From: Bacillota bacterium
GTDB lineage: Bacteria; Bacillota; Sulfobacillia; JAJZIM01
Assembly (NCBI GenBank): GCA_021810565.1
Contig: JAJZIM010000014.1
Span: 1-58,812, forward strand
DNA length: 58,812 nt
Reading direction: 5' to 3'
Shown here: positions 39,603-53,660 of the stretch, one piece after another
How positions within the stretch are numbered: the first letter of the stretch is position 1
How the letters are laid out: each line of letters begins with the position of its first letter
The notes under the pieces: model-generated
The model's input: the letters and a program-made list of their open reading frames with translations, nothing else
Databases searched by the model: none
What the model was told of the DNA's origin: nothing
Position numbers and translations under genes: made by a program

Positions 39603-40868
39603 ATGGTGACCTACGCCGCCTTCGTGCACCTGGGTCCCCTCACCGTGTCTCTCTTCGGCCTGACGGCCCTGGCCGGGCTGGCAGCGGCGATGGTCCTGGC
39701 GGGGAGGGGAACGGCGCGCTTCGGGCTGCCCCGGGAGTCCGCGGGAGACCTGATCTTCGCGGCCGGCGTGGGGGCGGTGGTCCTCGGCAAGCTTTGGCCC
39801 TGGCTGCAGGGCGGGCTGGTCGGCGGGGTCGGCGGGCTGGTTTTCGGGCCGGTGTCCTCTCTCGGGGCGGCGTTGGGCGGGGCGGCGGGCCTGGGGTGGG
39901 CGCTGTGGCGGAGTCGGCTGGCGCCGCGGCCGGCCTTGGAGTCGCTCTTGGCCCCCCTGGCCGGCGGGGCGGCGGTGGCGCTACTGGGCTGGGACCGCTA
40001 CGGTCCGGCCTGGAGCGGGCCGGGGGCGGTGCAAATCGGCGGGGCGCGCCTGCTCCCCCTGCCGCTGCTGGCCGCCCTTGGCTCCTGGGCGCTTTTCGCC
40101 TGGCTGTGGCAGGGGCCGCCCCGGGAGGTGCTTCCCCGGGCGCTGGCGGGCGGCGGGGCGGTGGTGCTATTGCTGGACGAGGTGACGCGATTCTCTCTCC
40201 TGTCCATCTGGTGGCCCTTGGCGGCCCTGGCGGTGGGAGGGTGGCGGTGGCGATGGGAAGGAGGTTCACGGATGCAGGACGGGGTGCAGACGACGGAGGA
40301 GAGGCAGCAGACGACCGGAGGGCCGCAAAGCGGCGGCTCGCGCTGGCGGGGCCGAGGCCTGATCATCGGCGTCGTGGCGGTGCTGATCCTGGGCGGAGCC
40401 GCCGCCTGGGCCCTGAAGGCGCCGGCGAAGGTCCAAGTTGGTCCCCTGCCGGGGATGACTGCGCCCAACTTCACCTTGCCGGAGCTGTCCGGGGGGAGCC
40501 TTTCCCTGGCCTCCCTGCGCGGGCATCCGGTGTACGTGAATATCTGGGCCACCTGGTGCCCGCCCTGCCGGGCGGAGATCCCCAACCTGATCCGACTGAA
40601 GAAGCAGTACGGATCGCGGCTAACCATCGTGGGAGTGGCGGAGCCGGGCACGGGGGTGACCCCCGCCTCGGTGGCCGCCTTCGTCAAGCAGGAGAAGATG
40701 AACTACCCGGTGCTCTTGGACCTGTCGGCCCAAGTGGGCAACCAATACCTGGTCAGCGCCATCCCCACCAGCATCTTCATCAACGCCAAGGGACAGGTGG
40801 TGCAGCGCTTCACGGGAGAGATGACCCTGCCGCTGATGCGCCAGTACGTCAAGAGCATCCTGCCTTGA
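39603..40868 (+). CDS. fusion of Lgt-like membrane domain and TlpA/ResA-type thioredoxin
   Basis: A 421-residue protein. Residues 1-215 hold about six hydrophobic segments and resemble the prolipoprotein diacylglyceryl transferase fold (FVHLGPLTVSLFGLTALAGL, then GKLWPWLQGG), but the conserved Lgt Arg/His catalytic residues are not evident. A charged linker (220-250) and another transmembrane helix (GLIIGVVAVLILGGAAAWAL) lead to a thioredoxin domain with VYVNIWATWCPPCRAEIPNL and cis-Pro in SAIPTSIFINAKG. It is expected outside the membrane, reduced by CcdA one base upstream. The enzymatic role of the first domain is unknown. Confidence 0.82.
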   Translation: MVTYAAFVHLGPLTVSLFGLTALAGLAAAMVLAGRGTARFGLPRESAGDLIFAAGVGAVVLGKLWPWLQGGLVGGVGGLVFGPVSSLGAALGGAAGLGWALWRSRLAPRPALESLLAPLAGGAAVALLGWDRYGPAWSGPGAVQIGGARLLPLPLLAALGSWALFAWLWQGPPREVLPRALAGGGAVVLLLDEVTRFSLLSIWWPLAALAVGGWRWRWEGGSRMQDGVQTTEERQQTTGGPQSGGSRWRGRGLIIGVVAVLILGGAAAWALKAPAKVQVGPLPGMTAPNFTLPELSGGSLSLASLRGHPVYVNIWATWCPPCRAEIPNLIRLKKQYGSRLTIVGVAEPGTGVTPASVAAFVKQEKMNYPVLLDLSAQVGNQYLVSAIPTSIFINAKGQVVQRFTGEMTLPLMRQYVKSILP

Positions 40869-41682: not shown

Positions 41683-42714
41683 ATGGCGGAGCCCGAGCTC
41701 ACCACCTACTCGCCCGGATCGGGGTGAGGGTGCAAGATAGGTCCGGCGGACCTGGAGGAGATCCTGCGCCTTTTGCCCCGGAGCACCGACCCGAATCTGC
41801 TGGCGGGGCGGCACGACGACGCCGCGGTGTACCGGCTGACGGAGGACCTGGCCCTGGTGCAGACGGTGGACTTCATCACCCCCGTGGTGGATGATCCCTA
41901 CGACTTCGGGGCCGTGGCGGCGGCCAACGCTTTAAGCGACGTCTACGCCGTGGGGGGACGGCCGCTGTTGGCCTTGAACCTGGTCAGCTACCCGGTGCGC
42001 ACCCTGCCCTTGGGCACCCTGAACCGGACCCTGCAGGGGGGGGCGGAAAAGGCGGCCGAGGCGGGGGTGTGCATCGCGGGGGGACACTCGGTGGACCTGC
42101 CCGTGCCCGTGTACGGCTTGGCGGTGACCGGCACGGTGGATCCGCGCCGGATGGTGGGCAAGGGCGGCGGTCGGGCGGGGGACCGGCTCTACCTGACCAA
42201 GCCCCTGGGAAGCGGGGCCTTGGCCACGGCGGCCGACCGGCGCCTGTTGGGGGAGGAGGAGGTGGCCCTCCTGGTGCGAACCATGGCGCAACTCAACGCC
42301 GGGGCCAGCCGGGCCATGCTGGCCGCGGGGGCCCGCGCGGCCACGGACGTGACCGGCTTCGGCCTTTTGGGCCACCTGCACGAGCTGGCCCGGGAGAGCG
42401 CGCTGGCCGCGCGGCTTCAGGCCGGGGCGGTTCCCTACCTGAAGGGGGCGGTGGCGGCGGTGGCCCGGGGAGCGGTGTGCACCGGCACCCGCAACAACCA
42501 GAGCTTCGCCGCGGGGTTCACCCTATGGCGGGCCCATCCGCCGCGGGAGGAGCAGGTCCTCTTGTGCGACGCCCAGACCTCGGGAGGGCTGTTGATCGCC
42601 GTGGCGCCGGAGGATGCCGGGACGTTGGAGGAGCACCTCGCCCGGGAGGGCGTTCCCGGGTGGCCCGTGGGCGAGCTGACCCAGGGCCGGCCCGGTGCCG
42701 TGGAAGTGGTGTGA
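41683..42714 (+). CDS. selD: selenide, water dikinase SelD, itself a selenoprotein (Sec15)
   Basis: Makes selenophosphate, the Se donor for Sec-tRNA, from selenide and ATP. ATG 41683 (GAGGGGGG upstream) opens a 343-residue frame in which TGA 41725-41727 occupies the catalytic position: YSPGSG-U-GCKIGP, where other SelDs have Cys or Sec. Downstream motifs AVYRLTEDLALVQTVDF, AVAAANALSDVYAVGG, GGHSVD and ATDVTGFGLLGHL confirm the family. Annotation that stops at TGA would begin at Met31 and lose the active site. A hairpin follows the UGA. It leads a plus-strand group with TusA-like and DsrE-like genes. Confidence 0.93.
41728..41775 (+). promoter_or_regulatory. SECIS-like hairpin in selD
   Basis: About 11 bases after the UGA, AGGUCC-GGC-GGACCU forms a perfect stem-loop, with an outer GGUGCA/UGCGCC pairing around it. 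Location and size fit a bacterial SECIS. Drawn by hand. Confidence 0.6.
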
Positions 42715-42727
42715 GAGGAGGAGCGTG

Positions 42728-42961
42728 ATGGAGGTGCAGGAAGTGGTGGATGCCCGGGGACGCCGGTGCCCTTGGGGCATCGTGGAGGCGGGGAAGCGGT
42801 TTCGGAACCTGGCGGCGGGGACGGTGCTGGCCATCGACAGCGACGATCCGGTTTCCGCCACCCAGGTGCCGGCCTGGTGCCAATTGACGGGGCACGAGTA
42901 CCTGGGGGAGGAGGCCGCCGCCGCCGGGTGCACCCGCTACCTGGTGCGCCGGAAGGAATAG
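42728..42961 (+). CDS. TusA-family sulfur carrier protein with variant CPWG motif
   Basis: A 77-residue TusA/SirA fold protein: VVDARGRRCPWGIVEAGKRF, then AAGTVLAIDSDDPVSATQVPAWC. The persulfide-carrying Cys is present, but the usual CPxP is CPWG. TusA proteins hand sulfane sulfur between enzymes; beside selD, a selenium-carrier role is conceivable. GAGGAGGAG precedes ATG 42728, 13 bases after selD. Confidence 0.88.
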   Translation: MEVQEVVDARGRRCPWGIVEAGKRFRNLAAGTVLAIDSDDPVSATQVPAWCQLTGHEYLGEEAAAAGCTRYLVRRKE

Positions 42962-42963
42962 CC

Positions 42964-43437
42964 ATGGCGGGCAAGGTGACCATCCTTTTGACGGATGACA
43001 GCCTGGACAAGGCGTGCGTGGCCTTCAACGTGGCCCTGGGGGCCGCGGCGGCGGAGAAGGAGGTGGCCATCTTCTTCACCTGCTGGAGCCTGCGGGTGCT
43101 GCGCCGGGCAGGGCGCTCCGCCGGGCGGGGGCTTGTGCCGCGGATGATGGATTGGACCACCCGGGGCGGGGCGGCGCGGCTGCCCCTGTCCCGCTGGAAC
43201 TTCTTCGGCCTGGGGGCGTGGATGATGCGCCGCGCCATGCGCCGGGGACACCTCGACCTGGTGCCGCAGCAGATCGCCACCGCCCGGGAGCTGGGCGTGA
43301 AGTTCTATGTGTGCGACAAGCCGGCCCAGCTCTTCGGGCTGGGCCTGGAGGACCTGCTGCCGGTGGTGGACGGGGTGGTGGGGGTACCCTCCCTGCTCCT
43401 TTGGACCACCACCTCCCAGACCACCCTGTGCTTCTAG
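42964..43437 (+). CDS. DsrE/DsrF/DrsH-like (DsrE3-type) sulfur-transfer protein
   Basis: A 157-residue protein of the DsrE3/DrsH type: KVTILLTDDSLDKACVAFNVALGAAA, EVAIFFTCWSLRVLR, ARELGVKFYVCDKPAQLFGL and DGVVGVPSLLLWT. Two conserved Cys (FFTCWSL and FYVCDKP) are the likely sulfur-binding residues. DsrE3 with TusA forms a cytoplasmic sulfur-transfer pair in sulfur oxidisers. It lies two bases after the TusA-like gene and ends at a palindromic terminator. Confidence 0.85.
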   Translation: MAGKVTILLTDDSLDKACVAFNVALGAAAAEKEVAIFFTCWSLRVLRRAGRSAGRGLVPRMMDWTTRGGAARLPLSRWNFFGLGAWMMRRAMRRGHLDLVPQQIATARELGVKFYVCDKPAQLFGLGLEDLLPVVDGVVGVPSLLLWTTTSQTTLCF

Positions 43438-43447
43438 CGGAAATACC

Positions 43448-43473
43448 GGGGGGCCTGCCGCGGCAGGCCCCCC
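43448..43473. terminator. 26-base perfect palindrome between convergent genes
   Basis: GGGGGGCCTGCCG is followed directly by its exact reverse complement. It separates the selD-DsrE3 unit (plus) from the OsmC end of the minus operon and probably stops transcription both ways, although no T tract is present. Confidence 0.6.
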
Positions 43474-43497
43474 AGTGACGTACGCTGGCCGACCGCC

Positions 43498-44019
43498 TCA
43501 GGCGAGGCGCGCCGACAGCCGCACGGGATGGGTCAGGCAGAAGGAGGCGGGGCAGCGCTCCTCGGCCTCGCGCAGCACCTCGGCCAGCGCTTCGGGCGAG
43601 GCATCTCCCTGCGCTTGCACCACCAGGCGCACCTCCTCCATGATGGGTCGCTGGGACAGGCCGAGGGTGCGGGACAGGTCCAGGTCCATCTCGGCCGCAG
43701 TCTCCAGGCGGGACAGTTCTATGCCCTGCTCAGCGGCCAGGGTGGCGAAGGTGGCGGTGAAGCAGGCGGCCAGCCCGAAGAGCGCGTATTGAATCGGACC
43801 GGGGCGGCTGCCGGAACCGCCGAGGAAGGGAGGCTGGTCGGCCTCCAGAGAGACGCTGCCCCCCGGCAGGCCGACTTGGGCGCGAAACTGCGGCTCTCCC
43901 GGAGTGAAGCTCCAGGCTCCCTCCAGGCGCTGGGTGCGCCGGGCCTGGGCCGGATCCGTGGCCGCCGCCTGCTGGAAGCGGCGCAGGGCCGCCAGATCCA
44001 CCTTGTTTTGCTCCGCCAT
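43498..44019 (-). CDS. OsmC family protein
   Basis: A 173-residue OsmC-fold protein: FLGGSGSRPGPIQYALFGLAACFTATF, containing the first reactive Cys in AACF, and a second in CPASFCLTHPV. OsmC/Ohr proteins reduce organic peroxides with cysteines; members in sulfur clusters may bind acyl-persulfide or act on sulfur species. It is the last gene of the minus operon, 44 bases after the lipoate-binding protein, with AAAGGAG upstream of ATG 44019. Confidence 0.9.
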   Translation of the reverse strand: MAEQNKVDLAALRRFQQAAATDPAQARRTQRLEGAWSFTPGEPQFRAQVGLPGGSVSLEADQPPFLGGSGSRPGPIQYALFGLAACFTATFATLAAEQGIELSRLETAAEMDLDLSRTLGLSQRPIMEEVRLVVQAQGDASPEALAEVLREAEERCPASFCLTHPVRLSARLA

Positions 44020-44063
44020 TCGGTCAACGCTCCTTTGCCTAGAATTTTGACGGAAAAGTCGGC

Positions 44064-44504
44064 CTACTTCAGGAAGCCCTCCCGGCGGTAGCGCTCCAGC
44101 TCCTCCGCCAGGAAGGCGTCCACGGCCTCGGGACCGTGGACCAATCCCTCCAGATCCTGCGGGTCGGTGGGCTCCAGCACCGACAGCCAGCCCTCGCCGT
44201 AAGGATCCGTGTTCACCAGGCCGGGCTGCTCCAGCACCCGGGGGTTGACCTGGACCACCGTTCCGCCCGCGGGGGAACGCAGGGCGCCCACGAACTTGCC
44301 GGCCTCCATGGACCCCAAAAGCTTCCCCCGCAGCACGGCGCTGCCCGGGGGCTTGAGTTGCACATGCTTCACCTCCCCTGCCGCCGCCTGCCCGATGGCG
44401 TCCAGGCCCACGCGCCAAAGCTTGCCCTCGGGTCGCACCCAAAGGTGGTGCTGCCGGTCGTAGTGGAGCTCGTCCGGCAGTTGGTAGCCGCTGGCTTCAG
44501 CCAT
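44064..44504 (-). CDS. GcvH-like lipoate-binding protein (LbpA type)
   Basis: A 146-residue lipoyl-domain protein like glycine-cleavage H protein: DRQHHLWVRPEGKLWRVGLD, AAGEVKHVQLKPPGS and LGSMEAGKFVGALRSP, with Lys70 as the lipoylation site. No other glycine-cleavage gene is present. In sulfur oxidisers LbpA proteins carry sulfur on lipoate for the sHdr complex. It overlaps the stop of the iron-sulfur gene by eight bases, so the two products likely work together. Specific LbpA function is inferred from context. Confidence 0.85.
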   Translation of the reverse strand: MAEASGYQLPDELHYDRQHHLWVRPEGKLWRVGLDAIGQAAAGEVKHVQLKPPGSAVLRGKLLGSMEAGKFVGALRSPAGGTVVQVNPRVLEQPGLVNTDPYGEGWLSVLEPTDPQDLEGLVHGPEAVDAFLAEELERYRREGFLK

Positions 44505-45636
44505 TTGATGATCCCTCCTGGCGTGATCGTTGGAGGATCTGGGCCAGGTCCCACACGGGGAGCTCCTCCCCCAGGCGGTGGAGACCCTCCTGGAGCATCC
44601 GCTGGCACTGGGGGCAGGCGGTGGCCACCGCCTGCGGCGCGGTCTCCCGCACCATCCGCGCGAGGCCCGCCGCCACCTCCCCCGCCGCCGCGGCGTCGCG
44701 CATCTCGAAATCGCCACCCCCGCCGCAGCACACCCCGTCCAGGTGGTGCTCGGGCAGCTCCCTGAGCTTAAGCCCCGGCACCGCCGCCAAGAGGCGCCGG
44801 GGCGCCTCGAAGACCCCGCAGCCGCGCCCCAGGTCGCACGGGTCGTGATAGGTGACGCTCAGGTTCAACGGGCCCAGAGCGAGCCGGCCCTCCCGCACCA
44901 GAGCGTCCAGGAACTCGGCGGCGGAGAGCAGTTCCACCTGCGTCACGCCGTAGTGTTCCCGCCACTCCCGCAGGCAGGAGGGGCAGGTGAACACCACTCT
45001 TTGGGCGCCGATGGCCGCCAGGCGCTCCAGGTTGTGGCGGCGCAGGGCCTCGGTCTGGGGCGCGAGGCCGGCCACCCGCAGCGGAAAACCGCAGCACCAC
45101 TCCTCTCCCCCCGCCAGGGTGAAGTCCACCCCGGCGGCGGTCAAAAGCCGGGCGAAGTCCTGGGGGATGCCCTGCACCGCCGGGGAGAAGGAGGAGACGC
45201 AGCCCACGTAGTAGAGCACTTCGGCCCGGGGGCGGGTGAAGGCGTCGGCGGGGGCGTCGGTCATGAAGGCCACCCACTCGGCCCGCTCGTCGTTGGGCAG
45301 GTCGAAGACGTTCTTGGCCGCGTCCACCGTCCGGGCGAGCCGCTCCACGAAAGGCGGCGCGGTGGCGGCCTCGACGGCCTTGCCCCGCAGGTGGTGCCAC
45401 AGGGCCGGCAGGTCGTAGTCCACGGGGCAGACCTGAGCGCAGCGGCCGCAAAGGGTGCAGTCGTAGCGGCGGCCCGCCGCCCCCAGGTCGCGCCTTCCCT
45501 CCGCCGCCGAGCGCAACCGCCCGCGCGGGGAGGACGACTCCCATCCCAGGACGGCATAGGTGGGGCACACCGCGTTGCAGTAGCCGCAGCGGGCGCACGC
45601 GGCGAAATCGCTGGCCGAGGAAGGCACACGTGGCAT
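44497..45636 (-). CDS. GlcF/HdrD-like iron-sulfur protein with two CCG domains
   Basis: A 379-residue protein with two 4Fe-4S sites (C14, C17, C20, C24 and C60, C63, C66, C70, each CxxCxxCxxxCP), then two cysteine-rich CCG domains: CVSS with EEWCCGFPLR, and HDPCDLGRGCG with VCCGGGGDFEMRD. This is the layout of glycolate-oxidase GlcF and heterodisulfide reductase HdrD/HdrCB; CCG domains bind the non-cubane clusters that act on disulfides. Partner candidates are the adjacent lipoate-binding protein and the GlcD-like flavoprotein of the divergent operon. Confidence 0.88.
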   Translation of the reverse strand: MPRVPSSASDFAACARCGYCNAVCPTYAVLGWESSSPRGRLRSAAEGRRDLGAAGRRYDCTLCGRCAQVCPVDYDLPALWHHLRGKAVEAATAPPFVERLARTVDAAKNVFDLPNDERAEWVAFMTDAPADAFTRPRAEVLYYVGCVSSFSPAVQGIPQDFARLLTAAGVDFTLAGGEEWCCGFPLRVAGLAPQTEALRRHNLERLAAIGAQRVVFTCPSCLREWREHYGVTQVELLSAAEFLDALVREGRLALGPLNLSVTYHDPCDLGRGCGVFEAPRRLLAAVPGLKLRELPEHHLDGVCCGGGGDFEMRDAAAAGEVAAGLARMVRETAPQAVATACPQCQRMLQEGLHRLGEELPVWDLAQILQRSRQEGSSNG

Positions 45637-45638
45637 GA

Positions 45639-45884
45639 TCAGCCCTCCCGCAGGGCTTCCTCGATCTGGCGGCGCACCTCGGAGCCGAAGCCGATGAAGA
45701 TCCGACCACCCAGGTCGATCACCGGCACGGTGCGGGCTCGGGACAGCTCATACATCTCCACGCGGCCCCGGGCGTCGGCGGCCACGTCCACCTCCTCGTA
45801 GGCCAAGCTGCGGCCGGCGAAGAAGGCCTTGGCCGAGCGGCACTGGGCGCACTCGGGGGTGGAGAAGATCCGGATGCGTGGCAT
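45639..45884 (-). CDS. glutaredoxin-like protein
   Basis: An 81-residue thioredoxin-fold protein: RIRIFSTPECAQCRSAKAFFAGR with a CAQC active site, and TVPVIDLGGRIFIGFG with cis-Pro. It resembles NrdH/Grx small reductases fed by thioredoxin reductase. ATG 45884 overlaps the upstream DsrE stop by one base (TGATG). It presumably keeps sulfur carriers or the lipoamide reduced. Confidence 0.9.
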   Translation of the reverse strand: MPRIRIFSTPECAQCRSAKAFFAGRSLAYEEVDVAADARGRVEMYELSRARTVPVIDLGGRIFIGFGSEVRRQIEEALREG

Positions 45885-46327
45885 CAGAAGGTTACCGCCA
45901 CGTCGTGGCGGGCCAGCTCCCGGGCCACCTGGGCCAGGGGAACCGGTTCCACGCCCTCGAAGAGGTCTTCCGGTTCCAGCCCTCGGGCGGCGAGGGCGCT
46001 GCGCACCGCCACCACCCGCCCACCCAGGTCCAGGAAGTCCCGGATGAAGCCCGCGTTGTTGGCGTAGCCGATCCCGACGGGATCCTGCTCCCGCAGGGCG
46101 AAGTACACCCCGTCCTCCAACAGGACCAAGGTGGCGTCCCCCTCCGAGGCCAGCACGGCGTTGCCCACCTGGATGGCGCTGTAGCCGTCGTCGTAGCGGC
46201 CGTAGGTGCCGCGGGCCAGGAGGATCAGCACCGAGAAGCTGGCCGGACCGCGGGGCCGGTTCTTCAGCTTCGAGAGGTCGATGACGCATTCGGGGCATTC
46301 CTCGGCAGTCTGGTTCTCGTCGGCCAT
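45884..46327 (-). CDS. DsrE-fold protein, apparently without the usual reactive Cys
   Basis: A 147-residue protein: SFSVLILLARGTYGRYDDGYSAIQ, then TLVLLEDGVYFALREQDPVG and the C-terminal LARHDVAVTF, a DsrE-fold pattern. The position normally holding the active Cys reads VVAVRSALAARGL. The N-terminal extension has ECPEC, a possible metal or redox site. GGGAGG lies upstream of ATG 46327. It could be a structural partner of the neighbouring DsrE in a TusBCD-like ring. Confidence 0.8.
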   Translation of the reverse strand: MADENQTAEECPECVIDLSKLKNRPRGPASFSVLILLARGTYGRYDDGYSAIQVGNAVLASEGDATLVLLEDGVYFALREQDPVGIGYANNAGFIRDFLDLGGRVVAVRSALAARGLEPEDLFEGVEPVPLAQVARELARHDVAVTF

Positions 46328-46343
46328 CGTCGCTACCTCCCTT

Positions 46344-46694
46344 TCAGCCGGTGAAGGTGAGCACCTGATCGGAGCTCTTCAGCCAGTTGATGAAATCGAA
46401 TAGACCTACCTGGGGAATGCCGGGCAGGGTGTCCTCCGGGGTCACGTCCCGGGATTCGGCGCAACGGGCGCACACCTTCACTTCCACCCCCCGCGCCATG
46501 GCCTCCCGCAGCAGTCGTCCCGCATTCTCGTAAGGCTTGTCGGCCTTCACGTGCGGCGCCCACACGCCGTCGATGTAGCAGTACAGGTTAACGGCGTAGC
46601 CCTTCTCCCGGGCCTTGAGGGCCACCTTCAGAGCCAGGTCGGCGTACTCGGAGACGAAGGGTCCCCGGTTGAGCAGCACGGTCAGCGTTTTCAC
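46344..46694 (-). CDS. DsrE/TusD-like sulfurtransferase
   Basis: A 116-residue DsrE-fold protein: KTLTVLLNRGPFVSEYADLAL, VNLYCYIDGVWAP and GVEVKVCARCAESRDVTPED, the last containing the Cys at the position of the active site of DsrE/TusD. GTG 46694 overlaps the stop of the upstream selenoprotein gene (GTGA). Together they appear to form a persulfide or selenopersulfide relay. Confidence 0.85.
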   Translation of the reverse strand: MKTLTVLLNRGPFVSEYADLALKVALKAREKGYAVNLYCYIDGVWAPHVKADKPYENAGRLLREAMARGVEVKVCARCAESRDVTPEDTLPGIPQVGLFDFINWLKSSDQVLTFTG

Positions 46695-47284
46695 AGCACC
46701 ATCACCTTGTCCCACTCCTCCATCACTCGGTCCACCAAGACGTCCAGGGCTTCCTCCACGGCCACGGCCCCCGGCACCAGGCGCTCGGGGGACAGCCCGC
46801 CGGCGCGCAGGTGCGGGGCGCTCACCAGAACCTCGCCGCCGCGGCGCAGCACCGTCTCCAGCTGCTCCGCCGTGGGCCCGTGCTGGTTCCGGCAGGCGGC
46901 CAGCACGCCGTCGCTGAGGCAGAAGATGCAGGCCTGGTCCCCCCAGGCCAGGGCCTCGGCCGCGGTGCCCAAAGCGCTGGCCGCCTCGCCGCCCGGCGGC
47001 TTGGTGAGGATGATGCCCAGGCGGGAAGGCTTGGCCTGATTGATGAGCTCCAGGATCTCCTCGCGCTCCAATTGGCCGTAGGCCGACAACTTGCGGTTGA
47101 CCACCAGGGCCGGAGCGGAACGAACCCCCAGGGACGCCGCCTCGGGCGAGGCCACCGGCAGAAAGCGCACCTCCACCTGCTCGTCGGCCAAGTGGTCCCT
47201 CACAACGTCCACGACGTTTTGCGTGAGGGTGAGTCAGCGCTTTCCGCAGGGCGTGTTGCGGATCACGTCCAGCTGCAGCTTCAT
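46691..47284 (-). CDS. thioredoxin-fold/DsrE fusion selenoprotein (CGKRU, Sec17)
   Basis: Reading the in-frame TGA at 47236-47234 as Sec gives a 197-residue protein from ATG 47284 (AAGGGGG upstream): MKLQLDVIRNTPCGKR-U-LTLTQNVVDVV. Residues 1-75 form a thioredoxin-like fold with Cys13 and Sec17 after the first strand and cis-Pro in SAPALVVNRK. Residues 82-197 are a DsrE-fold domain (ACIFCLSDGVLAACR). The CxxxU spacing is unusual. A very strong hairpin follows the UGA. Without recoding the gene would start at 47212 and lose the redox site. First gene of the seven-gene minus operon. Not a family I can name. Confidence 0.78.
47197..47233 (-). promoter_or_regulatory. SECIS-like hairpin in the thioredoxin-DsrE gene
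   Basis: Four bases after the UGA begins CCCUCAC (47229-47223), which pairs perfectly with GUGAGGG (47203-47197); inside, after a 4-base bulge GCAA, AACGUC-GUG-GACGUU forms a second perfect stem. The bulge, short apical loop and distance from UGA match bacterial SECIS elements well. Confidence 0.75.
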
Positions 47285-47311
47285 CCGGAAACCCCCTTCG
47301 TCGAAAGGCTA

Positions 47312-47341
47312 TTTACAGCCTAGCACAGGCCAAGGTATAAT
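47312..47341 (+). promoter_or_regulatory. promoter of the LysR-type gene
   Basis: TTTACA (47312-47317), 18-base spacer, TATAAT (47336-47341) in the 118-base interval between the divergent operons. Operators for the LysR protein would be expected here. Confidence 0.6.
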
Positions 47342-47402
47342 TCCAGTAGAAATAAAGCGAAAGATGCATACCCATCAGGTTATGATTAGAGGGGGACGGC
47401 AG

Positions 47403-48305
47403 ATGAACCTGCTGCGCCTGCAGGTGTTCCAGGCCGTGGCCCAGCACCTCAGCTATTCCCGGGCCGCCCAGGAGCTGTTCGTCAGCCAGCCTGCGGTCTC
47501 CAAGCAGGTTCGCGAGCTCGAGCGGGAGCTGGGGGTGCACCTGTTCGCCCGGGCGGGCCGCGGCATCCGCCTCACGGAGGCGGGGCGGGTGATCTTCGCC
47601 TACGCCCGGCAGGTCCAGGTCCTGACGGAGGAGGCCCGTTGCGCCCTGCGGGACCTGGAGCAGCTGGAACGGGGGTGCCTGCGGGTGGCGGCCACCCCGG
47701 GGCTGGCCCCCTACTACCTCCTGCCGGCCCTGGCCCGCTTCGCCCGACGCCACCCGGCCCTGGAGCTGGAGGTGCAGGTGGCGGATGCCGGGCGGATCCG
47801 GGGCCTCCTGGAGGAAGGGGAGGCGGACCTGGCCTTGGTCGGGGAGCTGCCCTCGACGCCGGCCCTGGGGGTGCTGCCCCTGGGCGAGGAGCGGCTGGTG
47901 GTGGTGGCCGCGCCGACGCATCCGTTGGCCACCGGCAGGGAGGATCTGGCTGCGGCGGACTGGCTGTGGCGGGAAGAGGGATCGGCCACCCGGCGGTTGG
48001 GCGAGGAGATCTTGACCTCGTTGGGGGTGGCTCCCCGGCGTGGCATCACCCTTCCGGGGCCGGAGTTGGTGAAGCGGGCCGCCGCGGCGGGGCTGGGCAT
48101 CGCCTTGGTGGGGGAGGGCTGCGTGGCGGCGGAGTCGGCGCGGGGCGAGCTGGCCCTTGTGCGGACCCTGGGGCGGCGGCCCCTGTCCTTGCTGTCCCGC
48201 AAGGGTGCCCGGGTGCCGGCGGCCGCCTTGGCCTTCACCGCCCTGCTGGAGAAGCACGGCCCGGGGGAGGAGCCCGATGCAAGCGCAGCGCCGCATGCTC
48301 GATAA
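47403..48305 (+). CDS. LysR-type transcriptional regulator
   Basis: A 300-residue regulator. The N-terminal winged HTH reads NLLRLQVFQAVAQHLSYSRA and AQELFVSQPAVSKQVREL; the C-terminal effector domain begins LRVAATPGLAPYYLLPALARF. LysR proteins usually activate divergent neighbours on binding a small ligand; here the targets would be the two sulfur-relay operons, and the ligand may be a sulfur metabolite (inference). ATG 47403 follows AGAGGGGGA. Confidence 0.93.
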   Translation: MNLLRLQVFQAVAQHLSYSRAAQELFVSQPAVSKQVRELERELGVHLFARAGRGIRLTEAGRVIFAYARQVQVLTEEARCALRDLEQLERGCLRVAATPGLAPYYLLPALARFARRHPALELEVQVADAGRIRGLLEEGEADLALVGELPSTPALGVLPLGEERLVVVAAPTHPLATGREDLAAADWLWREEGSATRRLGEEILTSLGVAPRRGITLPGPELVKRAAAAGLGIALVGEGCVAAESARGELALVRTLGRRPLSLLSRKGARVPAAALAFTALLEKHGPGEEPDASAAPHAR

Positions 48306-48322
48306 GGAGGGTGAGGGGGGTG

Positions 48323-48673
48323 ATGGACACGAGACCGGGGACCATCGGCATCCTGCTCACGGCCTCTCCGGCCCATGCGGCTTCCCGCGCCGCCCTGGCC
48401 CTGGCGGAGGCGGCCCTGGAGGCGGGCCATGCCGTGGAGCTGTTCCTGATGGAGGACGGATTGTACCATGCCCTGCCCACCGGTTACCGGGACGATCCGG
48501 CGGCGCGGCTGGAGCGGCTGGCGGCGCGCGGGATGAGGGTGGCGGCCTGCACCTTCAACGCCACGGTGCGGGGGTTGGGCCGGGGTCGGGCCGCGCCGGT
48601 GGTGGAGCTGGCGGGGCAGGAGGAGTTGGCTCGCCTGGTGGAGAATTGCGATCGGTTCCTGAGCTTCGGCTAG
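48323..48673 (+). CDS. DsrE/TusD-like protein
   Basis: A 116-residue DsrE-fold protein: TIGILLTASPAHAASRAALAL, AVELFLMEDGLYHAL and MRVAACTFNATVRGLG, with the conserved Cys at the TusD/DsrE active position. It is the first of a DsrE-DsrF-DsrH-like trio on the plus strand, starting 17 bases after lysR with GGAGGGTGAGG upstream. Confidence 0.87.
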   Translation: MDTRPGTIGILLTASPAHAASRAALALAEAALEAGHAVELFLMEDGLYHALPTGYRDDPAARLERLAARGMRVAACTFNATVRGLGRGRAAPVVELAGQEELARLVENCDRFLSFG

Positions 48674-48686
48674 GGGGTGACGGAGG

Positions 48687-49022
48687 ATGCGGGAAGTGGT
48701 GGTGGTGCTGCGGGGCCGGCCGCTGGAGCGCGGCTACGGGGCCGAGGCCTGCCGGGTGGCCGTGGGGCTGACCCAGGCCGCCAATCGGCCCACCTTGCTA
48801 TGCCTGGAGGACGGGGTGGAGGCGGTGGGACCGCTGGGCCTCGAGGAGGAGTTGGCGCGGCACCTGTCCCGCTTCGCCCGGCAGGGCGTGGGCTTGGCGG
48901 CGGACGCGGCGGCCCTGGCCGAGCGGAAGCTGACGGCCCAGGTGCCGGACGTCAGGGTGCTGGAGCATGCCGCGTGCCTGGAGCTCTTGGCCCGGGCGGA
49001 CCGGGTGGTGGTCTTCCGGTGA
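48687..49022 (+). CDS. DsrF/TusC-like protein
   Basis: A 111-residue DsrE-fold protein lacking a Cys at the reactive position, as is usual for TusC/DsrF: EVVVVLRGRPLERGYGAEACR, PTLLCLEDGVEAVG and ARADRVVVFR. It follows the DsrE-like gene by 13 bases. A hetero-hexameric ring with its neighbours is the expected structure. Confidence 0.8.
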   Translation: MREVVVVLRGRPLERGYGAEACRVAVGLTQAANRPTLLCLEDGVEAVGPLGLEEELARHLSRFARQGVGLAADAAALAERKLTAQVPDVRVLEHAACLELLARADRVVVFR

Positions 49023-49278: not shown

Positions 49279-49527
49279 ATGAAGCTGTCGGAAAATGCGC
49301 CGGACCGCAGCTTGGACATTCGCGGGGTGGTGTGCCCATATACCCTGATCGACACCCGCGAGGCCTTGCAGGAGATGGATAAGGGGCAGCTGCTGGAGGT
49401 CTGGACCGACTGGGAACCCGCGGTGCTCGAGACGCTGCCCAACTACTGCCGCACCCAGGGATATCCCTGCCAGGTGGTGGACCTGGAAGACGGCACCTGG
49501 CGGGTGCTGATCCGGAAAGGGGATTGA
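49279..49527 (+). CDS. TusA-family sulfur carrier with CPYT motif
   Basis: An 82-residue TusA-fold protein: SLDIRGVVCPYTLIDTREAL, QLLEVWTDWEPAVLETLPNYC and a C-terminal strand. The first Cys is the persulfide carrier; CPYT replaces CPxP. GGAGGTGAGAAGG precedes ATG 49279. It likely exchanges sulfur with the DsrEFH-like complex upstream and with the lipoate protein of the divergent operon. Confidence 0.88.
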   Translation: MKLSENAPDRSLDIRGVVCPYTLIDTREALQEMDKGQLLEVWTDWEPAVLETLPNYCRTQGYPCQVVDLEDGTWRVLIRKGD

Positions 49528-49529
49528 GG

Positions 49530-50945
49530 ATGGCCTTGCCGGAGCTGTACTGCGACGATCCCTTCGAGCGCGGCTTCTACGACCGGGATCTGGCGCCGGT
49601 GCCGGAGGCCTTGGTGCGCCGGCTTTTCCGCACCGTGCCGGATTTGGTGGCCAGACCGCAGGACGGGGAGGGGGTGGCCCGGGTGTTGGAGCGGGCCCGC
49701 CGGGAGGGGCGGGGCGTCACGCCACGGGCGGCGGGCACCAGTGCCTACGGCAACGCCGTGCCCGCCCGGGGGGGCATCCTCCTGGACCTGAACGGTCTCA
49801 GAGGTAGGGCCGAGCTCTTGCCGGAGGCGGGTGCCGTGGCGGTGGACGCGGCCACCCGTTGGGGCGAGTTGGAGCGCTGGCTGCGCCGGCGCGGCTGGGC
49901 GCTGCTGTCCTACCCCACCAGTGCTCCCGGCTCCACCGTGGGGGGCTGGTTCAACCAGCAGGGCTTCGGGGTGGGCAGCCTGCGCCACGGCCGGATGCAC
50001 GAGCAGGTGCTGGCGGCGCGGATCGTGCTGAGCGACGCCCGGGTGAGGGAGCTTGGGCCCGACACGGATCCGCCCCTGGGGTGGTTCGCCGGCAGCGAGG
50101 GGACCCTGGGGGTGGTGACGCGCCTCACCCTGCGGGTGCGGCCGGCGCCGGAGCGGGAGGCCCACCACCTGGTGGCCCTGCCCGACGCGGCGGCCCTGGA
50201 GGACCTGTCCCGGACCCTGGCCGGTTGGGATCCGCCCCCTTTCAGCCTCCATTTTGCCGACGGGGAGTTCCACCGCCTTCTGGAGGAGGCGGGGCATCCC
50301 GCGGCCCAGGGACTCACCCTGCGGGTGGACCTGGACGGATCGGCCGAGTACCTGGAGGACGCCCGAGCGCGGCTGGCATCCGCCGCGGGCTTGCGGGGCG
50401 GGCGGGTCCTGGGCGGTCCCGCGGCCCTGGAGGATTGGCTGGAGCGCTGCTTCGAGGTGCGGGTGAAGCGCGCCGGCCCGGTGCTGGTGGGAGCGGAGGT
50501 GTGGCTGCCCCTGGCCTCCCTGGGACGCTTCCTGGAGGCGGCGCAGGCGGTGGGACGGCGCCGGCGCCGCCGGGTCTTCACCTACGGCACCGTGGCCAGC
50601 CGGGACCACTGTCTGGTCAACGCCTTCTTTCCGGTGGACGCCGTGGGCTGGCGGGAGCTGCCGTCCCTGGGCCTGGTGGAGGAGCTGCAGTCCTGGGGCC
50701 TGCGCCTGGGAGGTCACCCCTACGGCGGGGTGGGCCTTTGGAACGCCCCCTACCGGACGGCCATCCTCTCCGCCCAGGAGCGCGCCGAGCTTTCGCGACG
50801 CAAGGCGCGGTTGGACCCTGGCGGACTGCTCAACCCCGGCAAGCTGTACGCTCCGGCGCATCTTTTGCTGCGCCCCGGGCTGTTCCGGCCGGGCCTGCGG
50901 GCCTTGGGGTCCGTGCGGATATCTGGTCGCCGAGATGGGTCTTAG
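49530..50945 (+). CDS. GlcD-like FAD-binding oxidoreductase
   Basis: A 471-residue flavoprotein of the VAO/PCMH class: RGVTPRAAGTSAYGNAVPARGG and SAPGSTVGGWFNQQG for FAD_binding_4, and a C-terminal oxidase domain ending RLDPGGLLNPGKLYAP. It resembles glycolate/D-lactate dehydrogenase GlcD, whose electrons pass to a GlcF-type Fe-S protein like the one in the divergent operon. The substrate is unknown; context suggests lipoate-bound sulfur or a hydroxyacid. ATG 49530 is used, with TTG 49524 (TTGA overlap) as alternative. Confidence 0.88.
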   Translation: MALPELYCDDPFERGFYDRDLAPVPEALVRRLFRTVPDLVARPQDGEGVARVLERARREGRGVTPRAAGTSAYGNAVPARGGILLDLNGLRGRAELLPEAGAVAVDAATRWGELERWLRRRGWALLSYPTSAPGSTVGGWFNQQGFGVGSLRHGRMHEQVLAARIVLSDARVRELGPDTDPPLGWFAGSEGTLGVVTRLTLRVRPAPEREAHHLVALPDAAALEDLSRTLAGWDPPPFSLHFADGEFHRLLEEAGHPAAQGLTLRVDLDGSAEYLEDARARLASAAGLRGGRVLGGPAALEDWLERCFEVRVKRAGPVLVGAEVWLPLASLGRFLEAAQAVGRRRRRRVFTYGTVASRDHCLVNAFFPVDAVGWRELPSLGLVEELQSWGLRLGGHPYGGVGLWNAPYRTAILSAQERAELSRRKARLDPGGLLNPGKLYAPAHLLLRPGLFRPGLRALGSVRISGRRDGS

Positions 50946-53121
50946 GGGTCGGGTACTGCTCCTCTTGGGGGCGGTGTTGGCCTTGACCATCGCCGCCGGC
51001 GTGCTGCTGATCATGGCCGAGGTCCGCGCGGACCAGCGGCACCAGTACCGGCTGCAGGGGGCCCACGTGCTGTCCATGTTGGACGAGGCCGCCGCCGACC
51101 TGCAGGTGGGGAAAGACAGGGCGGCGGCCGCTCGCGCGGCCTTCGCCCGGGCGGCCTTTCCCGACGTGCGCCGGGTTTCGGTGCGCCTGCCCTCGGGCCA
51201 GGAGGTCGCCGCGGGGCCGCCGGTGCGGCCGGGCTGGCTGGCGGTGCGGGGAGCGCTTCCCGGCGGCGGGCGCGGCGCGGTGTACCTATCCCGTAATCGG
51301 GAGGACGCCCTGCTGCGCGCGGATGCCGAGCGCTGGGCGGCATGGGGGCTGGGCGGGCTGGTCCTGGCCACCGGTGCCGCCTACTGGGCCCTGGACCGGC
51401 TGCTCCTGCGGCGGCTCCATGGGCTGCGCCGGGCGGTGCAGCGCATGGCGGCGGGGGAGCTGGGGGCGGCCCTGGCACCTTCCGGCACCGACGAGCTGGC
51501 CCAGGTGGAGGAGGACGTGGAGCGGCTGCGGCGCACCTTGGGGGAGCGGCTGGCGGAGCTTTCCCAGCGGGAGGAGGACTTTCGCACCGCGGTGGCCTCC
51601 CTGGCGGAGGCGGCGGCGGGCCGCCTGCCCCTGCGCCAGCGTTGCGCCCACATCCTGGAGGCCACGATCCGGGCCACTCGCGCTCAGACGGGCGCCTTCT
51701 ACCTGGCGGGCCAGCCGGGGGAGCCACTGGAGGCGGCGGCGGTGCGGGGGGTGCCGGCCCGGGCCTTCAATCCGGCGGTGCTGCGCCGGGAGGGCCGCAG
51801 CCACGATCCGGTCTTCTGGCGGACGGGAGGCGAAGACGAGTTCGGCCTGGGGATCCTGCTCTTCGCCGGCAGCCGCGAGTTGGCGGCCCTCTTGGTGGCC
51901 CGCCGGGCGGCTCCCTTCGGGTCTGCCGAGGGAGAGGTGTTGCGGGTGCTGGCCGATCAGGCCGCCGTGGCCCTGGAGAGCGCCCGGCTCGAGGCGACTA
52001 TGGAGGAGCACCTGCGGGAGGATCCGGCCACCGGTCTGCCGAACTACCGGGAGATGGAGGAGTTCCTGCGCCAGCGGATCGACCGCGGTGAGGGGCTGGC
52101 CCTGGTGCTCTTGGACATCGATCACTTCCGCCGGCTCAACGCGCGCCTCGGACGGCCCACCGGGGACGCCGTTCTGCGTCGGCTGGCCCGCCGGGTGCGA
52201 CTGGCGGCAGGGCCTGCGGATCTGGTGGCCCGGGTGGGAGGGGACGATTTGGCGGTGGTGCTGCCGGGAGCCGGCGAAGCGCCGGCCTGCCTGGCCGCCG
52301 AGCGGCTGCGCTCGGCGGTGGAGGAGATGGCCTGGGGGGAGCTGTTGGAGCCGGAGGAGAGGATCACCGTCTCCGCGGGCATGGCCTTCTTCCCCGCCTC
52401 GGCGGACAGCTACTCCCGCCTGGTGCAGGCGGCGGAAGACGCCCTCTTCGCTTCCAAGCTGCTCGGGGGCAACTGCGTATCGAGCTACCAGCCGGCCTAC
52501 GCCGCCCTGAAGGAGTTGGACCCCGCCCAGGTGCAGCAGCAGCTGCGGGGCGGCGATCCGCAGACGGTGCGGGTGCTGGCCGCGGCGGTGGACCTGCGCG
52601 ACGCGTACACGGCTCGCCACGGCGCGGTCATGGCCGCTCTGGCCGCCGCGGTGGGCCGGCGCCTGGGCCTGTCGGCCGCGGAGCAGTCTTCCCTGCGCAC
52701 CGCCTGCCTTTTGCACGACGTGGGCAAGATCGGCGTCCCCGATCACATCCTGGGCAAGCGCGGGCCGCTCACCGCGGCGGAGCGGCGGGTGATGAACGGC
52801 CACGCCCAGATGGGGGCGGAGTTGATCGGGAACCTTTCCGCCCTGGCGGCCGCGCGCCTGGGCGTGCTGCACCATCACGAGCGTTGGGACGGCCAAGGCT
52901 ATCCCGAAGGCCTGGCCGGCGAGGCGATACCGCTCTTGGCGCGGGTGGTGGCGGTGATCGACGCCTATGAAGCCATGACCTCGGATCGCCCCTACCGCTC
53001 GGCCATGGACCCGGCGGCGGCGGTGGCGGAGGTGGAGGTCCATGCCGGCACGCAGTTCGACCCGCGGGTGGTGCGGGCCCTTTTGGAGGAGCTGGCGGCG
53101 CGGGAGGCCCGGACCGGATGA
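50935..53121 (+). CDS. membrane GAF-GGDEF-HD-GYP signalling protein
   Basis: A 728-residue c-di-GMP protein. Transmembrane helices near residues 8-28 and 138-158 flank an extracytoplasmic domain; then HAMP (160-212), GAF (about 225-365), GGDEF (375-525) and HD-GYP (540-725). The cyclase signature reads GGDDL, so synthesis may be weak or lost. The phosphodiesterase keeps LLHDVGKIGVPDHI and HHERWDGQGYPEGL. ATG 50935 overlaps the GlcD-like gene by 11 bases and the next gene overlaps its stop, so it is cotranscribed with the sulfur operon and may sense its state. Confidence 0.9.
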   Translation: MGLRGRVLLLLGAVLALTIAAGVLLIMAEVRADQRHQYRLQGAHVLSMLDEAAADLQVGKDRAAAARAAFARAAFPDVRRVSVRLPSGQEVAAGPPVRPGWLAVRGALPGGGRGAVYLSRNREDALLRADAERWAAWGLGGLVLATGAAYWALDRLLLRRLHGLRRAVQRMAAGELGAALAPSGTDELAQVEEDVERLRRTLGERLAELSQREEDFRTAVASLAEAAAGRLPLRQRCAHILEATIRATRAQTGAFYLAGQPGEPLEAAAVRGVPARAFNPAVLRREGRSHDPVFWRTGGEDEFGLGILLFAGSRELAALLVARRAAPFGSAEGEVLRVLADQAAVALESARLEATMEEHLREDPATGLPNYREMEEFLRQRIDRGEGLALVLLDIDHFRRLNARLGRPTGDAVLRRLARRVRLAAGPADLVARVGGDDLAVVLPGAGEAPACLAAERLRSAVEEMAWGELLEPEERITVSAGMAFFPASADSYSRLVQAAEDALFASKLLGGNCVSSYQPAYAALKELDPAQVQQQLRGGDPQTVRVLAAAVDLRDAYTARHGAVMAALAAAVGRRLGLSAAEQSSLRTACLLHDVGKIGVPDHILGKRGPLTAAERRVMNGHAQMGAELIGNLSALAAARLGVLHHHERWDGQGYPEGLAGEAIPLLARVVAVIDAYEAMTSDRPYRSAMDPAAAVAEVEVHAGTQFDPRVVRALLEELAAREARTG

Positions 53122-53660
53122 CCGACTGGCACGCCCGCCTGGGGGTGCGGCCGGGCGCCGACGCGGCGGAGCTGCGGCAGGCGTACCGCTTGCTGGTGCA
53201 CTTGTACCACCCGGACAAGCACCGCGGCACCTCGGGAGAGGCCCAGGCCTGCGCGCGCCTGCGGGAGGTGACCGAGGCCTACCACGAGCTGCGGCGGCGG
53301 GCGCCGCGAGGGCGGCGGGGCGGACCTGCCGGCTGGCTGCGTTTCCGATGGCGGGGGGAGGAGGTGGCCTTGGGCCTGGAAGGGGTGCGGGAGGTGGCGC
53401 CCCGCGGGACGCTGCGGCAGCTTCCCGGAGCGGGTCCTCCCTTCGGCGGCTGGCTGGAGCTTCGGGGAGAGTTGCTGCCGGTGGTGGTGCCCCCGGGGCG
53501 GCAGGGGTGGCGCTGCGTGCTGATCCTGGAGCAAGCCGGGCGGTGCTGGGGGATCGCCCTGGAGGACCTGCCCCGGCTGGAGACCGGAGGCGAGCCGGGT
53601 ATGACCGTCCGCCGGGTGGAACCGCAGGAACTGCGGGGGGAGGAGACGGCCCCGGACTAG
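53118..53660 (+). CDS. J-domain protein fused to a CheW-like domain
   Basis: A 180-residue protein. Residues 1-65 are a J domain (DWHARLGVRPGADAAELRQA, with the HPD motif in LYHPDKHRG) that would stimulate a DnaK ATPase. Residues 75-165 look like CheW: VALGLEGVREVAPRGTLRQL, then GWLELRGELLPVVVPPG and CWGIALEDL. CheW domains couple receptors to CheA kinase. The fusion is not a standard architecture. ATG 53118 overlaps the signalling protein stop (ATGA), suggesting a scaffold or chaperone in that pathway (inference). Confidence 0.75.
   Translation: MTDWHARLGVRPGADAAELRQAYRLLVHLYHPDKHRGTSGEAQACARLREVTEAYHELRRRAPRGRRGGPAGWLRFRWRGEEVALGLEGVREVAPRGTLRQLPGAGPPFGGWLELRGELLPVVVPPGRQGWRCVLILEQAGRCWGIALEDLPRLETGGEPGMTVRRVEPQELRGEETAPD

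Follow-up and report, generated by a model that had tools for sequence, protein, structure and literature searches.

A mechanical ORF finder starts one minus-strand gene of the window (i.e., of the whole 58,812-nt stretch of DNA that was analysed) at GTG 47212. As ordinarily annotated, this gene would appear as a headless DsrE protein. Followed further upstream, the same frame (47284..46691) holds a single in-frame TGA (47236-47234) before it reaches an ATG. The question is whether this UGA is decoded as selenocysteine (Sec), and, if so, what the extended protein does. The respective features are:

46691..47284, minus strand: Thioredoxin_3-DsrE fusion gene, 197 residues with Sec17, stop 46693-46691 (translation, Pfam, AF2, fold matches)
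47234..47236, minus strand: in-frame TGA, proposed Sec17, 4 residues past Cys13 (CGKRU), aligning with the second Cys of CxxC in all homologues of alignment A1
47292..47299, minus strand: ribosome-binding-like GAAGGGGG, 7 nt spacing to ATG 47284 (sequence)
47197..47229, minus strand: bSECIS-like hairpin, 7 bp + 5' bulge + 6 bp, loop GUG 47212-47210 (folding, model check)

From the ATG, the fusion reads MKLQLDVIRNTPCGKR-TGA-LTLTQNVVDVV... and stays open to its stop. The preliminary description of this DNA had named such a single-TGA frame to ATG 47284 with a good ribosome site and a CGKRU motif, and coordinates, frame and GAAGGGGG all agree with it. A GAAGGGGG-like site is found only before ATG 47284, i.e., the apparent start at GTG 47212 has no comparable ribosome site upstream. 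With regard to codon usage, the coding signal that flanks the TGA on both sides ranks 2nd among 439 candidates, that is, among the TGAs of the window with an open frame on either side.

The strong evidence for reading through the TGA is given by homology and a predicted fold that run across it, with the TGA placed at the column of a redox Cys. Homologues from the Thioredoxin_3 family (PF13192) align on either side of the TGA (GxGC-xxC-xTLxxN vs. NTPC-GKRU-LTLTQN). In alignment A1, whose homologues are single-domain proteins of other genomes, 8/8 Thioredoxin_3 sequences have Cys, the second of CxxC, at the TGA column, and the invariant columns include C13, L20, P58 and G70. Homologues with Cys at the TGA position, which the preliminary description had named as a check, thus exist for the domain; orthologues of the fusion were not found in the genomes listed below. 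Thioredoxin_3 relatives from named genomes follow the same pattern with the sole exception of one Deferribacteraceae protein (L136, 5881-6117), whose active site reads CCKKS and is without a second Cys. The Thioredoxin_3 protein of Ndiopella massiliensis (Clostridiales) is found with identical sequence at two loci (L098 and L127). A genome that encodes it belongs to the phylum of the window's own genome, which is in line with the latter being probably a member of Bacillota. Relative to the CxxC of Thioredoxin_3, the active site of the fusion has one residue inserted, resulting in the longer motif CxxxU (C13-G-K-R-U17). Most thioredoxin-type selenoproteins carry Sec at the first (nucleophilic) position. 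We count both the second position of Sec in the fusion and its extra spacer residue against the Sec reading.

The Thioredoxin_3 Pfam score amounts to 22.1 bits when starting from the GTG and to 23.3 bits with X at codon 17. Residues 1-87 with Cys at U17 reach 26.2 bits against a gathering cut-off of 24.8; the whole protein scores 23.4. The extension adds just about 4 bits. The AF2 model shows a pLDDT of 90.6 and a pTM of 0.74, based on an alignment of 16 sequences, few and partial. Here, the extension contributes strand 3-9 as well as the initial half of helix 15-31, with Sec17 near the helix start, and the predicted thioredoxin fold is complete only with the extension, as expected from the earlier claim that the added residues supply a first beta strand and a Cys/Sec pair. 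In this predicted model, residues 1-88 match thioredoxin (VIA Z 11.4, 85 residues, 2.0 A to 1v98), and residues 85-197 match DsrE/YchN/DsrH/TusD folds (VIA Z 16.1, 110 residues, rmsd 2.0 A to 3mc3; Z 15.1, 98 residues, 1.8 A to DsrH 2hy5_C). The DsrE-type C-terminus that had been described is thereby recovered at the level of the predicted fold, and the product is, as modelled, a two-domain protein with a complete thioredoxin fold of Thioredoxin_3 type (residues 1-86) followed by a DsrE fold (86-197).

With regard to sequence, the DsrE domain (PF02635) of the fusion scores below the gathering cut-off (17.5 and 19.2 bits vs. 22.7) and lacks the conserved DsrE Cys: it reads VLVSAPH where the neighbouring DsrE_A protein has VKVCARC, with Ser155 in place of the Cys. 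The domain thus probably carries no sulfur itself. No selenoprotein model of NCBIfam matched the fusion, and a likeness to DUF166 (PCGAT) was dropped for want of Pfam support.

The hairpin following the UGA was evaluated by folding, which confirms the bulged shape with perfect 7- and 6-base stems that had been described. Its 7-bp lower stem (CCCTCAC/GTGAGGG) is followed on the 5' side by the bulge gcaa and then by an upper stem of about 5-6 bp (AACGTC/GACGTT, 6 bp) that closes the GTG loop. The loop begins 21 nt past the UGA, and the hairpin has an MFE of -17.1 kcal/mol (z = -1.8). The published bSECIS model expects a loop of 3-9 nt with a stem of 4-16 bp, G in the first two loop positions, a spacing of 16-37 nt and an MFE of at most -7.5 (PMC13188914). 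The bSECIS search that had been advised finds the fusion-gene hairpin within all four of these limits. The same holds for 39% of the 1014 TGAs of the window, which has 69% GC, and for 21% when using G[GU]. A stricter version, with limits picked after seeing the fusion-gene hairpin, retains 3.8% of the window TGAs, and hairpins with at least 6 bp and GU are found at 0.8%. Given this high chance level in a GC-rich window, the hairpin alone is modest evidence, i.e., supportive and not decisive. Among the other Sec genes of the genome, the hairpin of selD conforms to the model (loop GGC, 17 nt) and that of the PDO gene fails it as implemented here. No known RNA of Rfam matched at the fusion-gene hairpin.

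Whether or not the organism can insert Sec may be judged from its genome. It encodes selA (524.6 bits), selB (332 bits; 368 with the C-terminal part included) and a tRNA-Sec with UCA anticodon (69.2 bits). The fourth gene is located in the window:

41683..42714, plus strand: selD, TGA 41725-41727 at the catalytic residue, SPGSG-U-GCKIG (selD model 352 bits with Cys)

This selD is a selenoprotein gene itself, with its own conforming hairpin. In addition, a PDO/Grx-like protein of the same genome reads TPTUPYCP, i.e., has a UGA within a thioredoxin fold, and its U is kept in 18 further related loci from other genomes of the class. The preliminary description would have been given up had selA, selB and selC been missing elsewhere in the genome; all three are present along with selD. 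Given selA, selB, tRNA-Sec, the TGA-bearing selD and the Sec-PDO, UGA is very probably decoded as Sec in this organism, thioredoxin folds included.

For the UGA of the fusion gene in particular, we consider Sec decoding highly probable, and two other explanations of the TGA have to be weighed against it. If it were a true stop, it would end a 16-residue leader peptide, to be followed by a separate DsrE-type protein from GTG 47212, and the hairpin would be an attenuator or due to chance. This reading, which we regard as very unlikely, agrees with the 39% of window TGAs that have a model-conforming hairpin and with the ORF being open from GTG 47212. However, the latter codon sits in the hairpin loop without a ribosome site, its use as a start would leave the thioredoxin fold without strand 1 and with just half of helix 1, homology extends over codons 13-23 on either side of the TGA, and no U run is observed after the hairpin. 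An assembly or sequencing error, such that the codon is really TGC or TGT and the protein an ordinary CxxxC thioredoxin-DsrE fusion, is highly improbable: a single base would change the codon and the sequence stems from one genome in 115 contigs, but assembled contigs contain few errors, the same genome uses Sec in SelD and PDO, and a model-conforming hairpin follows the TGA.

The chief weakness of the case is that the fusion is an orphan in the genomes searched. No fusion orthologue was found in about 620 distinct genomes, which cover 101 relatives, the whole class (154), a 398-genome sample of the phylum and a second class (83). These sets yielded relatives with either a Thioredoxin_3 or a DsrE domain alone, or weak and unrelated matches. 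Nor was the fusion among the matches listed for two peptide-pattern scans of 84,980 species genomes, which reach near relatives only. Within these genomes, the full-length protein thus has no counterpart for a direct Cys/Sec pairing. Several TGA-bearing matches were examined and rejected as counterparts. The TGA of locus L013 is a true stop after a CxxC protein. In genome G013, two DsrE proteins (L011, 1-700; L016, 1435-1803) have an in-frame TGA within VAT-U-GSCCEARGL, i.e., UxxC, and represent a known family. Many TGA-bearing Thioredoxin_3 matches were observed in the class, and the 19 loci that were read encode Sec-PDO/Grx-like proteins of the type already known, with TPTUPYCP or a close variant of it.

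The claim that the protein matches no known selenoprotein family holds in part. Neither the CxxxU motif nor the Thioredoxin_3-DsrE fusion is contained in a 2026 inventory of 119 selenoprotein families, while this inventory already lists Sec in PF13192 (CxU, UxC) and in a DsrE-like protein (UxxC; PMC13188914). What is new about the fusion is therefore its architecture and its motif; it is not of a kind unrelated to known selenoproteins. No co-mention of CXXXU and selenoprotein was found in the literature searched. Thioredoxin-like selenoproteins Sec.1/Sec.2 (PF13192; PMC9312934, PMC13188914) belong to the same Pfam family and have Sec in the redox motif, but show CxU and UxC instead of CGKRU and are listed without a DsrE fusion. 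The DsrE-like selenoprotein of the Sargasso Sea set (PF02635, UxxC; PMC1088965) shares the DsrE fold; its Sec is in the DsrE domain, whereas the fusion has Sec in the thioredoxin domain and has lost the DsrE cysteine. YedF (PMC5322559) likewise combines a sulfur-carrier domain fused to DsrE with a genomic link to SelD, but its carrier domain is TusA and not thioredoxin, its CGxC is located in the DsrE domain, and it is without Sec. The nearest sequence relatives of the N-terminal half are redox-active disulfide protein 2/MTH895-ArsE-like Thioredoxin_3 proteins (TIGR00412) with Cys at the Sec column; those compared are single-domain CxxC proteins without Sec. DsrEFH/TusBCD (2hy5, 2d1p) are a close fold match of residues 86-197, and DsrE-fold subunits share the operon here as well, but these complexes have neither a thioredoxin domain nor Sec; a respective complex for the fusion is a proposal. 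Among the fold matches is also 1tho, an engineered E. coli thioredoxin in which an additional Arg lengthens the active-site loop, presumably to CxxxC; this laboratory mutant uses Cys and not Sec. If our reading is right, the inventory would gain two items that it does not contain, thioredoxin + DsrE as a selenoprotein architecture and CxxxU as a redox motif.

To judge what the protein might do, its neighbourhood is needed:

46344..46694, minus strand: DsrE_A, motif CARC (Pfam DsrE 2.8e-16)
45884..46327, minus strand: DsrE/DsrH-like protein (Pfam DsrE 4.5e-11, homologues)
45639..45881, minus strand: glutaredoxin-like, CAQC (nearest YruB/Uxx-star families)
44497..45636, minus strand: Fe-S/CCG protein, HdrD/GlcF/TfrB kind (profile matches)
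44064..44504, minus strand: GcvH-like, lipoate-binding (Pfam GCV_H 8e-30; lipoyl Lys motif SMEAGKF by eye)
43498..44027, minus strand: OsmC-like protein (Pfam)
47403..48305, plus strand: LysR regulator, divergent (resembles selenium-linked LysR subfamily, NF040786, below cut-off)
48323..48673, plus strand: DsrE protein C (Pfam)
48687..49022, plus strand: DsrE-like protein D (below Pfam cut-off)
49279..49527, plus strand: TusA sulfur carrier (Pfam)
49524..50945, plus strand: FAD-linked oxidase, GlcD type (Pfam)
42728..42961, plus strand: TusA-family protein after selD (profile matches)
42964..43437, plus strand: DsrE2-family protein, PF13686 (profile match)

The fusion gene and DsrE_A overlap in the sequence GTGA (46694-46691), which contains the stop of the former and the GTG start of the latter. 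HdrD/GlcF-like, GcvH-like and GlcD-like genes (44064..45636 and 49524..50945) cluster with those for DsrE and TusA. Such a cluster recalls sHdr-type sulfur metabolism, with different subunits.

We give about even chances to the complete explanation that joins Sec17, the two domains and a sulfur-relay mechanism, i.e., to a selenol-based persulfide/disulfide reductase tethered to a DsrEFH-like relay. A selenol-based role in sulfur transfer or persulfide reduction had been put forward in the preliminary description. Translation would start at ATG 47284 with UGA codon 17 read as selenocysteine, such that the N-terminal thioredoxin domain would present the active site Cys13-Gly-Lys-Arg-Sec17 along with the conserved Pro58. 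Through its DsrE domain, the protein would probably join a DsrEFH-like complex, together with the DsrE/H protein and with DsrE_A (CARC), whose gene is translationally coupled to that of the fusion. Here, the selenolate of Sec17 would attack a persulfide or disulfide on a sulfur carrier (DsrE_A, TusA), and the resulting Se-S bond would be resolved by Cys13. The glutaredoxin of the operon or the general thioredoxin system could then reset the CxxxU pair from its oxidised state. Judging by the GcvH-like, HdrD-like and GlcD-like genes, the last step of the relay may be a redox reaction linked to lipoate or flavin, comparable to sHdr-type sulfur metabolism. If this explanation is right, the position of the fusion gene among sulfur-carrier genes close to selD would offer a handle on the role of selenols in persulfide chemistry and on the carriers that bring selenium to SelD in vivo.

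The vicinity of selD is also seen in other genomes. The block selD - LysR - divergent DsrE - DsrE/H is conserved in several families of the class (L119, 6314-9255; L122, 5591-8859; window, 41683-49022). In two genomes that represent other families of the class, G081 (L119) and G066 (L122), selD-LysR adjoin the divergent DsrE-DsrE/H genes and no space is left for a fusion gene. This suggests that the fusion gene was added to a selD-LysR-DsrE block of older origin. When scored with the LysR_Se model NF040786 (curated cut-off 250), the LysR of the window reaches 182.8 bits (its second-best family), that of L119 205 bits, and that of L122 224.6 bits (its best match). The conserved block suggests that DsrE carriers take part in selenium metabolism.

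Two other functions of a Sec-containing protein compete with the sulfur relay. A general disulfide/peroxide reductase for thiol homeostasis, in which the DsrE domain is merely a dimerisation module, is compatible with a thioredoxin fold with a CxxxU pair and with the glutaredoxin and OsmC genes of the operon. We consider it a minor possibility, with the translational coupling to DsrE_A and the cluster of five other DsrE-type and two TusA proteins favouring a sulfur-carrier substrate instead. It is unlikely, too, that the selenoprotein serves selenium, i.e., that the Sec thioredoxin and DsrE/TusA proteins pass it (as perselenide/selenotrisulfide) to SelD under the selenium-linked LysR. The genes selD-TusA-DsrE2 are about 3-5 kb from the fusion, selD has LysR and the divergent DsrE-DsrE/H pair as immediate neighbours in two further families of the class, and NF040786 ranks first or second for the L122 and window LysR. 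Furthermore, a link to SelD is described for YedF, which fuses TusA to DsrE (PMC5322559), and the in vivo selenium donor of SelD is called unresolved in a 2026 review, its carriers being incompletely elucidated (PMC13188914). On the other hand, every LysR score is below the NF040786 cut-off, the HdrD/GlcF-like, GcvH-like, GlcD and OsmC genes point to sulfur/redox metabolism, and all evidence for a selenium function comes from the neighbourhood. We deem it quite unlikely that the fusion acts as the selenol reductase of a DsrE/TusA relay for selenium, where carriers would hold persulfide/perselenide and the CxxxU thioredoxin would release selenide or hand it to SelD; if so, a selenoprotein would help to supply the selenium for its own class.

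Beside this locus, the window encodes two further proteins of unusual composition. One (53118..53657, plus strand) pairs an N-terminal DnaJ domain with a CheW-like domain, and the other (39603..40868, plus strand) seems to join a weakly matching Lgt-like membrane part to a TlpA/redoxin domain.
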